Positions 41,784 through 45,672 of a stretch of 64,000 nucleotides of DNA are shown in pieces. Numbering within the stretch: position 1 is the first letter of the stretch; every line of letters begins with the position of its first letter. Source of the stretch: Thermococcus siculi (GTDB lineage Archaea > Methanobacteriota_B > Thermococci > Thermococcales > Thermococcaceae); NCBI RefSeq assembly GCF_002214505.1, contig NZ_CP015103.1, positions 806,001-870,000 on the forward strand, written 5' to 3'. A model generated the notes under the pieces. It saw nothing but the letters and a program-made list of their open reading frames with translations. It ran no database searches and was not told the DNA's origin. The translations under genes and the position numbers were made by a program.

Positions 41784-41836
41784 ACGATACTACGCTCTGG
41801 ACGTATATTGGTAATTGCCCGTTAACGGTGGTTTCC

Positions 41837-42520
41837 ATGAGGATAGTCGCGGCGGATACCGGTGGTGCACTTCTGACCGAGGATTACGAGCCGGTTGGGC
41901 TGATAGCAACGGCCGCGGTGCTCGTCGAGAAGCCCTACAGAACGGCAACCCTTAGTGCGGTGAGGTACGCGGATCCCTTCAACTACGACATGAGCGGCAG
42001 GCAGGCCGTGAGGGACGAGGCTTACCTGGCCGTTGAGCTTGCCCGGAGGGTCAAGCCCGATGTAATCCACCTTGATTCAACCATAGGCGGAATCGAAGTC
42101 CGGAAGCTCGATGAAGCCACCATCAATGCGCTCACGATAACCGACCGCGGCAAGGAGGTGTGGAAGGATCTCGCGAAGGACCTCCAGCCCCTCGCAAAGA
42201 AGTTCTGGGAGGAGACGGGGATAGAAGTGGTTGCCATAGGCAAGTCCAGCGTCCCGGTGAGGATAGCGGAGATTTACTCCGGCATCTACACGGCGAAATG
42301 GGCCATTGAGCACGCGAGGGAGAACGGGAGGGTCATCGTTGGGCTGCCGAGATATATGAAGGTGGAAATAAGGCAGGGGAAGATATACGGGGAGAGCCTT
42401 GACCCTAGGGAAGGCGCCCTCTTTGGGGAAATAGAGGCAGATACTGAGGGAATCGGCTGGGAACTCTACCCCAATCCGCTGGTGAGGAGGTACATGGTTC
42501 TGGAAGTGTGGCGAGAGTAG
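41837..42520 (+). CDS. DUF4152 protein, probable ssDNA 3'-5' exonuclease (PF2046/PfuExo I type)
   Basis: 227 residues with an RNase H-like layout: MRIVAADTGGALLTED (acidic first strand), VKPDVIHLDSTIGGIEVRKLD and KSSVPVRIAEIYSGIYTAKWAIEHARENGRVIVGLPRYMKVEI in parts. The P. furiosus homologue PF2046 has a known structure and, as I recall, single-strand-specific 3'-5' exonuclease activity. ATG 41837 follows ACGGTGGTTTCC; the GTG three codons upstream overlaps that ribosome site. Role in repair or primer trimming is inferred from the homologue. Confidence 0.78.
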   Translation: MRIVAADTGGALLTEDYEPVGLIATAAVLVEKPYRTATLSAVRYADPFNYDMSGRQAVRDEAYLAVELARRVKPDVIHLDSTIGGIEVRKLDEATINALTITDRGKEVWKDLAKDLQPLAKKFWEETGIEVVAIGKSSVPVRIAEIYSGIYTAKWAIEHARENGRVIVGLPRYMKVEIRQGKIYGESLDPREGALFGEIEADTEGIGWELYPNPLVRRYMVLEVWRE

Positions 42521-42556: not shown

Positions 42557-42916
42557 ATGGTGGATTTGACTATTCCTGTCGTGTACACCTTCATCATACT
42601 CATTGAAGTTGCGATGGTGTGGATCAGATCGACCGACTTCTTCTACTACTTCCATGACTGGTTCGCCTCGGAGAACCTCGCCGGGCCGGGGTACATGGAT
42701 CAGGAAAACTGGAGGGCCGTTCTCAGGGCCGCTGTGATTCTCGCCCTCCTTATGCTGGCGGTCGTCTGGCTCCTGAGTCTCCTGGACAAGACTATCTCCA
42801 TCGTTGGCGGCTTTGGTGCCGTTGTTTTGTACCAGCTTTTCCTGGGTGCGGTAATATCCGACGAGATCGAGGATTCAAGAAGGGAAAAGGGAGACTGGCG
42901 CTACGGCTGGTATTAG
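42557..42916 (+). CDS. Small integral membrane protein of unknown function
   Basis: 119 residues with three membrane helices (VVYTFIILIEVAMVWI, AVLRAAVILALLMLAVVWLLSLL, ISIVGGFGAVVLYQLFLGAVI) and an aromatic outside loop (STDFFYYFHDWF). No family recognised. TATA-like GGTTTTTAAC near 42525-42534 is ~25 bases before ATG 42557, suggesting a leaderless message. Its stop overlaps the TAA of a relic iorA tail on the other strand, which shows it once lay directly convergent with iorA. Confidence 0.65.
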   Translation: MVDLTIPVVYTFIILIEVAMVWIRSTDFFYYFHDWFASENLAGPGYMDQENWRAVLRAAVILALLMLAVVWLLSLLDKTISIVGGFGAVVLYQLFLGAVISDEIEDSRREKGDWRYGWY

Positions 42917-42944
42917 TTCTCCTCCTTCAGCTCGCTCGGGAACT
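42913..42944 (-). pseudogene. Relic of the original iorA 3' end
   Basis: On the minus strand the bases read TTC CCG AGC GAG CTG AAG GAG GAG AAC TAA, i.e. FPSELKEEN and stop. The live iorA gene ends KFPSELDKGA. The 17 bases CAGCTCGCTCGGGAACT (42928-42944) are identical to 43685-43701. The VapBC pair 3 lies exactly between the two copies. Confidence 0.65.
42928..42944 (+). repeat. 17-bp direct repeat, left copy (flank of VapBC cassette 3)
   Basis: CAGCTCGCTCGGGAACT; the right copy lies inside the 3' end of iorA at 43685-43701, 757 bases away. The arrangement is like the duplicated target at the ends of an integrated element. Confidence 0.75.
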
Positions 42945-43018
42945 ATTACGAGAACTTCCAGTATTCGTTTTGGGACAAAACTTAAAGCCCTATTGAGTAA
43001 TCCCCTTTGGGTGAGGGC

Positions 43019-43240
43019 ATGCCAACCGTAACCGTTAAGGTAACCGTTCCGGATAACGCTGATCCCGAGGCGATTAAGCGGCTCGTTGAGCTTGAAGTTG
43101 TCAAACTTCGACTCATGAGGAAGAACCTGGAAGGAAAGACATCAGGGGATTTCAGGAAATTGAGGGGAATCCTGGGTAAGGCCGAGATGGGAGAACTCAA
43201 AGCCTACGAGCTGGAGGCTGAGTTCGGTGATTTATATTGA
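43019..43240 (+). CDS. vapB: VapB-type antitoxin (pair 3)
   Basis: 73 residues: beta N terminus PTVTVKVTVPDNADPEAIKRL, then a long helix (LVELEVVKLRLMRKNLEGK) and an acidic C-terminal tail (ELKAYELEAEFGDLY) that would bind the toxin. It is a different antitoxin type from pairs 1 and 2. ATG 43019 follows GGGTGAGGGC. It overlaps the toxin gene by 14 bases (GGTGATTTATATTGA). Confidence 0.8.
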   Translation: MPTVTVKVTVPDNADPEAIKRLVELEVVKLRLMRKNLEGKTSGDFRKLRGILGKAEMGELKAYELEAEFGDLY

Positions 43241-43673
43241 CACCAACGTACTCTACTCGTACCTTTTTGAGACACCTATGAGCGAAAACGCTGAGAGGGT
43301 TCTCGGACTGCCTGAGAAGGTAACGTCCAAAGTCGCAATAAACGAGGCCGTGTACGTGGTCTTCAGGAGACTGGTCCGCGATAAGGGAATAACGAGCGTA
43401 CATGAAGCAAAGAAGTTCGTGAAGCTAAAAGAAGGACGAGAGCTGCTTGAACGGGCTTACTCCACTGTTATGAAGCTCGTTGAGCTTTCGGGGATAACGG
43501 TTGTGGAGGAAGAGAACGACTTCGACGTTCTAAAGGCCGTGTCCATGGAGTACGGCCTTCTTCCAAACGATGCAATAATCGTTGCAACGTGCATTAAACA
43601 TGGAATAACGGAAATAGCTACCTTTGACAGTGACTTTGAGAACGTTCCTTTCTTAAAAATAGTGAGGGGCTAA
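43227..43673 (+). CDS. vapC: VapC-type PIN-domain toxin (pair 3)
   Basis: 148 residues. Conserved acidic sites: Asp in YIDTNVLYSYL, Glu in VAINEAVYVVFRR, Asp in LPNDAIIVATC and Asp in IATFDSDFENVPFL. It starts with GTG 43227 within the antitoxin and its stop overlaps the convergent iorA stop by four bases. The pair occupies the DNA between two 17-bp direct repeats derived from the iorA end, so it probably arrived as a mobile cassette. Confidence 0.88.
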   Translation: MIYIDTNVLYSYLFETPMSENAERVLGLPEKVTSKVAINEAVYVVFRRLVRDKGITSVHEAKKFVKLKEGRELLERAYSTVMKLVELSGITVVEEENDFDVLKAVSMEYGLLPNDAIIVATCIKHGITEIATFDSDFENVPFLKIVRG

Positions 43674-45589
43674 GCCCCCTTATCCAGCTCGCTCGGGAAC
43701 TTTATGGCGTCGAACGGGCACGTCTGGTTGCAGACGCCACAGCCGGTGCAGAGAAGCTCGTCTATTCTGACCTTGTTGGTGTCGGGGTCGTAGACGAGAG
43801 CCGGACAGCCGGTCAGGAGTATGCACGCCTTGCAGCCCGTACACTTGTCCTCAATGACTATCGGCTTCTCCCCTATCTCACCGCGCCTTATCACCGGGAT
43901 GACGCACTCCTGCTTGGCTATTATGACAGCCGGCCCTTCAATCTGCATGGCTTCCTTTATCGCTTCCCTCGTTGCCTTGAGATCGTAGGGATCAACGGTC
44001 TTGACGTATTTCACTCCCAGGGCCTTCACGAGGGCCTCTATGTCGATCTCATTGAACTTCCTTCCGGTCTCGCTTCCGCCGGTTCCGGGGTGTGGCTGGT
44101 GGCCGGTCATGGCCGTCGTCCTGTTGTCGAGTATCATCACCAGGACGTTCAGGTTCTTGTAGACGGCATCAACCAAAGGCTGGATTCCGTTGTGGAAGAA
44201 CGTTGAATCGCCAATGGTAGCGATTATCTTTTTGTCCATGACGACGCTCTGACCGTTGGCGAGGCTTATGCTCGCGCCCATGACGTACTCCGTCCAGATG
44301 GCCTCGAGCGGCGGGAGGAGCGATAGGGCGTAGCAGCCTATGTCTCCGTGTATGGGCACGGAGTAGCGGCCGAGCTTGAGGTCCCTCAAGGCGTCGAGGG
44401 CGGCCCTGTAGGAGCCTCTATGTGGGCAGCCGGGACACATCACTGGCGGTCTCTTAGGAGCTAAACTCTCGGCGTAGGCAACCTCCTCCGGCTTGGTGTA
44501 CTCCTCACCTTCCTCGCCGATGAGGCTGAGAAGGGCGTTCCTCACGAGGGAGGGTGTAAGCTCACCCTCAAGCGGCAGATGACCGCTTCTCTTTCCATAT
44601 ATCGGCACGTTAAGCCCCGCTTCGTAGGCCGCTATCTTAACCTCCTCCTCAAGGAACGGTGCACCGTCTTCGATGACTATGGCCTCATCAACGGTCTTCA
44701 GGAACTCAACGACGAGCTTCTTGGGGAGAGGATGCGGTGTTGAGAGCTTGAGGATTTTGAAGTCGGCGTTTATCTTTGGAAGGACCTCCTTCACGTAGTT
44801 GTATGGGGCGCCTTCAACGATTATTCCGATTTTAGCGTCGCCCTTCCCCTCGATCCAGTTGAAGGGCATCTCGTTGAACTCCTCCTCGATCTTCCTGAGG
44901 GTCTCATTCAGCCACTTGTGCCTCTTTCTGTTTCCTTCCATGCTTGCCCTGACGTATCTTTCAATGTCCTTCTTGAAGACGGGTTTTCTGTTGAGTTCAA
45001 TGAACTCACCCACCTCAACGTCAGCTGTCGTGTGGTTAACCCTCGTCGTCGTCCTGAATATTATCGGGACCTTATAGCGCTCGCTCAGCTCGTAGGCGTA
45101 CTTTATGAGGTCGTGGGCCTCCTGCGGGTCGACAGGCTCAAGAACGGGGAGGAGCGAGAGCTTTCCGTAATACCTGTCGTCCTGCTCGGTCTGGCTCGTG
45201 TGCGGTCCGGGGTCGTCGGCGACGAGAACTACTAAACCTCCTTCAACACCGGAATAGGCGAGGCTCATGAGAGGATCTGCTGCGACGTTCAGTCCGACAC
45301 ACTTCATTGTAACGAGGGCCCTTAGCCCAGTGTAGGCAACGCCGGCAGCTTCCTCAAGGGCCACCTTCTCGTTCGGTGCCCACTCGGCGAAAACTTCAGG
45401 TTTGAGGTGGGCTATTGTCTCCACGACCTCCGTTGAGGGCGTTCCGGGATAGCCGGTAGCAAAGACAATGCCGCTCTCAAGTGCACCGTAGGCTATCGCC
45501 TCGTTGCCCATGAGGAGCTTTCTCTCGCGCTTCTCGGAATTAACTTCGGCCGCGTCAGAAGGGTAAGGCTTGGTTTTAACCGCTTCCAC
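43670..45589 (-). CDS. iorA: Indolepyruvate:ferredoxin oxidoreductase, alpha subunit (IorA)
   Basis: 639 residues, full length for IorA. Together with IorB it decarboxylates aryl pyruvates from aromatic amino acids to aryl-acetyl-CoA and reduces ferredoxin. Seen: N-terminal pyrimidine domain (IAYGALESGIVFATGYPGTPSTEVVE in parts), TPP-binding domain (HGDIGCYALSLLPP, IATIGDSTFFHNG, ILDNRTTAMTGHQPHPG) and a C-terminal two-cluster ferredoxin domain with CTGCKACILLTGCPAL and CTGCGVCNQTCPF. GTG 45589 with GGTGGTGATT before it is the likely start; GTG 45598 is longer. The 3' end has been rebuilt (KFPSELDKGA) beside VapBC pair 3. No iorB gene is adjacent. Confidence 0.95.
   Translation of the reverse strand: MEAVKTKPYPSDAAEVNSEKRERKLLMGNEAIAYGALESGIVFATGYPGTPSTEVVETIAHLKPEVFAEWAPNEKVALEEAAGVAYTGLRALVTMKCVGLNVAADPLMSLAYSGVEGGLVVLVADDPGPHTSQTEQDDRYYGKLSLLPVLEPVDPQEAHDLIKYAYELSERYKVPIIFRTTTRVNHTTADVEVGEFIELNRKPVFKKDIERYVRASMEGNRKRHKWLNETLRKIEEEFNEMPFNWIEGKGDAKIGIIVEGAPYNYVKEVLPKINADFKILKLSTPHPLPKKLVVEFLKTVDEAIVIEDGAPFLEEEVKIAAYEAGLNVPIYGKRSGHLPLEGELTPSLVRNALLSLIGEEGEEYTKPEEVAYAESLAPKRPPVMCPGCPHRGSYRAALDALRDLKLGRYSVPIHGDIGCYALSLLPPLEAIWTEYVMGASISLANGQSVVMDKKIIATIGDSTFFHNGIQPLVDAVYKNLNVLVMILDNRTTAMTGHQPHPGTGGSETGRKFNEIDIEALVKALGVKYVKTVDPYDLKATREAIKEAMQIEGPAVIIAKQECVIPVIRRGEIGEKPIVIEDKCTGCKACILLTGCPALVYDPDTNKVRIDELLCTGCGVCNQTCPFDAIKFPSELDKGA
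43685..43701 (+). repeat. 17-bp direct repeat, right copy (inside iorA 3' end)
   Basis: CAGCTCGCTCGGGAACT, encoding KFPSEL of IorA on the minus strand; identical to 42928-42944. Confidence 0.75.
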
Positions 45590-45672
45590 AATCACCACCG
45601 TATTCCCTTCTCGGTTGGGGTTAAAACTCTGCCTTCAGAAAAGCCCCACCAAAAATCGAAAAATTTTCGGAA

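Follow-up and report, generated by a model that had tools for sequence, protein, structure and literature searches.

Duplicated iorA gene ends around a vapBC pair in Thermococcus siculi: probable recombination of a foreign iorA-vapBC allele

INTRODUCTION

How does a pair of toxin-antitoxin genes come to lie between two copies of the end of a metabolic enzyme gene? This question is raised by a 64,000-nucleotide stretch of the Thermococcus siculi genome (hereafter called the window), in which vapB and vapC are enclosed by a direct repeat that corresponds to the 3ʹ end of iorA. An initial annotation of the sequence proposed that vapBC may be a minimal mobile unit that duplicated its target on entering iorA. 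We examined the locus in 61 genomes of the genus (designated by G numbers, and individual loci by L numbers); iorA was found in nearly all of them, and the sequence flanking its 3ʹ end was read at 56 loci.

RESULTS

A direct repeat made of two iorA gene ends

The 17-mer CAGCTCGCTCGGGAACT occurs at positions 42928-42944 and 43685-43701 of the window, with a start-to-start spacing of 757, and the sole genes between the two copies are vapB and vapC, exactly as the initial annotation had described. The longest alignable form of the repeat pair is 24 nt at 88%. Exact matches are confined to positions 42928 and 43685 across the whole genome of 2,029,167 bp, in which three other sites match with two mismatches, and when up to three mismatches are allowed the window contains the two copies only, compared with an expectation of 0.35. 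Likewise, the repeat score of 17 exceeds the null maximum of 10 obtained in 30 shuffles. Chance as a source of the repeat is ruled out by the genome-wide uniqueness, the mismatch expectation and the shuffles.

Both copies are read in the iorA frame. The left copy (42913-42944, reverse strand) encodes FPSEL-KEEN-stop, and at 42914-42916 its stop codon overlaps that of memb (42557-42916, forward strand), a gene for a small membrane protein that converges with this old iorA end and lies on the own-lineage side of the joint. The description of this copy as a stump of the old iorA 3ʹ end is supported by a relative (G029, locus L006) with an empty KEEN-type locus of the kind that the annotation had proposed to seek, whose intact iorA end matches the stump and whose sequence is identical to the window over an interval that starts at the memb C-terminus, spans the KEEN end and reaches into the SEL codons. 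The right copy (43678-43701, reverse strand, as delimited by the repeat alignment) resides within the 3ʹ end of the working iorA gene (43670-45598, reverse strand), where it reads FPSEL-DKGA-stop in frame and overlaps the vapC stop codon. On the left, the hotspot is bordered by up230 (41828-42520, forward strand), a core gene for a DUF4152 protein that adjoins iorA in most of the Thermococcus genomes read. A second, IorA-like paralogue outside the window (G000:C1:154132-156014) is split into two frames here and is a single frame of ~650 aa in relatives.

The left copy is followed by the joint and the vapBC promoter region (42945-43018, forward strand), which from ~42961 shows homology to the corresponding region in G012. 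The vapB gene (43019-43240, forward strand, 73 aa) lies 5ʹ of vapC (43227-43673, forward strand, 148 aa) in one operon, and the two genes overlap. The vapC product has a PIN domain (PF01850, E=3.9e-19) in which the acidic active-site residues D5, E40, D115 and D134 are all kept, and the vapB product, at 85% to its G012 counterpart, matches no Pfam family at E≤0.01. Judged by its sequence, the pair is a predicted VapBC type II toxin-antitoxin, which shares with other members of this type a PIN toxin gene that follows a small antitoxin gene and overlaps with it. Unlike the usual representatives, however, its antitoxin is without a Pfam match and the pair acts as a resident of one locus. The vapB start codon is GTG in G012, and in G038, G032 and G056 vapC contains a frame interruption or frameshift.

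Arrangements of the locus across Thermococcus

The space between up230 and iorA is occupied by vapBC, an ATPase gene, memb, other genes or nothing, and no integrase was found there. In the empty arrangement, up230 is joined directly to iorA, often with a stop-overlapping hairpin (GGGGCTAAGCCCC). The memb arrangement (up230-memb-iorA) has overlapping stops of memb and iorA, with iorA ending in KEEN, ENEN, D, EKS or similar residues. In the occupied arrangement (up230-vapBC-iorA), the vapC end lies inside the iorA end and the repeat is missing (G049, G032, G037, G038 and G056). The window itself is arranged as up230-memb-stump-vapBC-iorA. In part of Thermococcus, vapBC is a resident of the interval between up230 and iorA, with the end of vapC inside the iorA 3ʹ end. 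The initial annotation had named vapBC at iorA without a repeat as one observation that would refute a target duplication, and the repeat-less form is the majority among the occupied alleles.

Searches of the genus and of the wider family revealed no close relatives or decayed remnants of vapBC outside the iorA 3ʹ end, and the sole result of a wider scan of genome contigs was a metagenome-assembled genome equal to G056. At the iorA end, vapBC has decayed in at least eight genomes (G055, G005, G001, G002, G043, G054, G030 and G006), which argues against the earlier suggestion that the overlap of iorA with vapC resists loss of the pair.

Several individual loci exhibit further variation. Other cargo, comprising a ~336-aa protein starting MSKYGLWYYMPYGGNY and a membrane-like protein, adjoins vapBC or its remnants at the iorA end in G030, G006 and G039 (L044, L024/L139 and L056). 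An ATPase gene and more are located between vapC and iorA in G039 (L088/L060), suggesting a second entry into the hotspot, this time between vapBC and iorA. In G018 (L005/L093), up230 is close to iorA and the usual iorA-upstream genes are ~1 Mb away, which represents a rearrangement at iorA.

Stitched alleles with two different cargos

Among relatives with vapBC at iorA, only one other, G012, has the repeat. A second exact copy of its own iorA end, GCCCCCTTCTTCAGCTCGC, resides between up230 and vapB, and the sequence from this copy up to vapB is homologous to the window (score of 43 versus a null of 16.5 +/- 3.3). The distance from the repeat start to the shared promoter sequence GGACAAAACTTAAAG is 44 nt in G012 and 45 nt in the window. 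Given this homology and the near-equal distances, the joint is most likely the same in the two genomes. Its left neighbour is up230 with a hairpin-type end in G012 and memb with a KEEN-type end in the window, and therefore the joint of the window appears not to have been made afresh.

A parallel is provided by an independent cargo, the ATPase gene (MFYDRERELEKLN...), which in G040 and G027 replaces vapBC after the copied iorA end. This stitched allele adjoins up230 in G040 and, with the ATPase gene decayed, memb in G027, with the joint common to both, and a simple up230-ATPase-iorA allele with no iorA-end copy is present in G007 and G044. At the ATPase joint, the iorA-end copy is followed by a decayed up230 3ʹ end (pairwise score of 48 versus 19 +/- 3.8), whose up230 profile score was reached by none of 1000 shuffles in either G040 or G027. 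This remnant indicates a tandem fusion of two alleles, one empty and one occupied, in which an iorA end meets an up230 end. At the vapBC joint, neither pairwise alignment nor a profile detected an up230 remnant, and thus the stitching of alleles that can be read directly for the ATPase cargo would extend to vapBC by analogy. The copied portion of iorA is ~25-32 nt with vapBC and at least 45 nt with the ATPase, and this unequal length argues that there is no fixed core.

Mosaic descent of the iorA region

The genes beyond iorA (48.4-53.1 kb of the window) group with G049, G015, G032, G021 and G025 at 100/100. The vapBC tree places the pair with G012 and G056, also at 100/100, and far from G049 and G032, both of which carry their own vapBC at iorA. 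This position differs from that of the flanking genes, and the outside origin that had been proposed for vapBC is upheld. The body of iorA pairs with G018 (99), and both belong to a seven-member set that also includes G029, G057, G016, G012 and G056 (100). A tree in which the iorA row of the window is forced into the clade of its own flanks is worse by 368 log units and is rejected (p-AU 5.5e-7), although the scattered iorA genes of the other clade members add to this cost, such that the two-row test in which the window is forced with G049 alone (p-AU 0.004) is cleaner.

The window closely resembles its own clade upstream of iorA and over the first ~120 nt of the gene, after which iorA is G018-like to its 3ʹ end, in keeping with foreign descent from about codon 40 onward. 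The memb tree groups the window with G009, G021, G024 and G027 at a modest SH-aLRT value of 81, and up230, when used as a marker, yielded no supported grouping for the window. Taken together, the similarity profile and the trees point to a foreign tract that begins near the iorA 5ʹ end, takes in vapBC and stops at the left copy. The stump has the KEEN end of the G029 type, and the iorA genes of own-clade members G021, G025 and G024 end in LD-stop. A stump that is G029-like and not G021-like suggests either that iorA was exchanged twice or that the stump was imported with the tract.

DISCUSSION

Origin of the duplicated gene end

The mosaic trees suggest that a foreign iorA-vapBC allele was recombined into the locus, and that the repeat is the 32-nt stump of an earlier iorA end, an explanation that we consider probable. 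The DNA bearing this allele would have entered a cell whose locus was arranged as up230-memb-iorA with a KEEN end. The right joint could have been formed by conventional homologous recombination at a point in iorA close to the 5ʹ end, and the left joint would fall in the terminal ~32 nt of the resident gene, which would persist beside memb as the stump. The 17-bp repeat would then consist of the stump and the end of the new iorA. The stitched allele, composed of an iorA-end copy, vapBC and iorA, probably arose once from an empty and an occupied allele, and may subsequently have spread by using the iorA-end copy as a left homology arm, a process for which an integrase would not be required. The recurrence of the vapBC joint in G012 and the window, and of the ATPase joint in G040 and G027, each time beside different left neighbours, makes it probable that the left copy serves as a short homology arm. 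Of the routes of mobilization offered by the initial annotation, recombination through short homology comes close to this explanation, and the mobile unit is not supported. The exchange of iorA and the arrival of vapBC could be separate events.

We tentatively entertain a broader generalization, which for now seems rather doubtful, namely that passenger genes flanked by iorA 3ʹ end copies constitute an integrase-free cassette used by two unrelated cargos. Such a cassette might spread between species by homologous recombination via its end copies, whatever the neighbouring gene.

A Campbell-type route, in which a circle with vapBC and a single iorA 3ʹ end is excised between the copies and integrated by a single crossover in the short repeat, predicts exactly the KEEN left copy and the DKGA right copy and would produce an identical joint in differing left contexts. 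We regard this route as unlikely, as a crossover within 17-24 bp is expected to be rare and the foreign iorA body would require a second event. The order of arrivals might also be reversed, with vapBC and the old left copy established at iorA first, and memb with its KEEN end acquired later from a memb-type allele through exchange in up230 and in the left copy. In agreement with this order, G012 has the joint without memb, and joint and left context are separable for both cargos; however, it is memb (with its support of only 81) and the far left flank that look own-lineage, whereas vapBC and iorA look foreign, and the reversed order is thus quite improbable.

The genome contains no SSV-type integrase, and a PF00589 search revealed one tyrosine recombinase only, a XerA-like protein of 286 aa that is also XerA-sized. 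Moreover, a scan of 32 VapC loci elsewhere, including three in this genome, revealed no flanking repeats above chance. A minimal mobile vapBC unit that entered the iorA 3ʹ end site-specifically, with a recombinase acting in trans and at least 17 bp of target duplicated, would explain the gene-end target, the rebuilding of the gene by the repeat and the fact that the pattern recurs in G012 and, with an ATPase as cargo, in G040 and G027, but it is very unlikely given that its cargo is restricted to the iorA locus, the copied length varies between cargos, other occupied alleles lack the repeat, the ATPase joint includes the end of the neighbouring up230 gene and iorA itself is foreign.

Comparison with known systems

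Integrative elements at gene 3ʹ ends (SSV-type elements, casposons and genomic islands) resemble the iorA locus in that a gene-end direct repeat flanks the cargo and the gene stays whole. They differ from it in that here the integrase and a fixed core are absent, the cargo is bound to one locus and other occupied alleles lack the repeat. A small cargo enclosed by direct copies of a gene end is not necessarily an integrative element, and a useful test is whether the rebuilt gene is itself foreign.

The favoured recombination of a foreign allele would instead make the locus resemble homology-facilitated illegitimate recombination (HFIR) combined with exchange at an integrase-free hotspot. HFIR, in which homology on one side allows unlike DNA to be joined on the other, has been shown for E. 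coli conjugation (PMC3240628) and invoked for Vibrio effector-immunity arrays, where incoming modules leave old 3ʹ genes behind and then spread by homologous recombination (PMC5361080). A one-sided homologous anchor is evident at iorA, whose discordance extends from about nt 120 to the end of the gene. The joint to unlike DNA is seen for the ATPase cargo; the vapBC joint is the one without a detectable up230 remnant. As in Vibrio and Rhs loci, an old 3ʹ part stays as an orphan beside the new module. Compared with these systems, the host here is an archaeon, the gene encodes a metabolic enzyme, the stump is only 32 nt and the stitched allele recurs with other neighbours.

Our literature search found no paper on Thermococcus VapBC with direct repeats. 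For bacteria, Oliveira and others described hotspots of horizontal gene transfer that lack mobile elements and owe their renewal to recombination in adjacent core genes (PMC5635113). The iorA locus shares with them the lack of an integrase, the variable cargo between two core genes and a discordant flanking core gene, and differs in being archaeal and in having a joint that can itself be read as duplicated gene ends. It provides a readable archaeal example of how toxin-antitoxin genes can move as passengers of a core gene when no mobility gene is present; empty, occupied and stitched intermediates are preserved within one genus. Among known systems, iorA-vapBC would be a further, archaeal and well-preserved case of HFIR and of the hotspot free of mobile elements.
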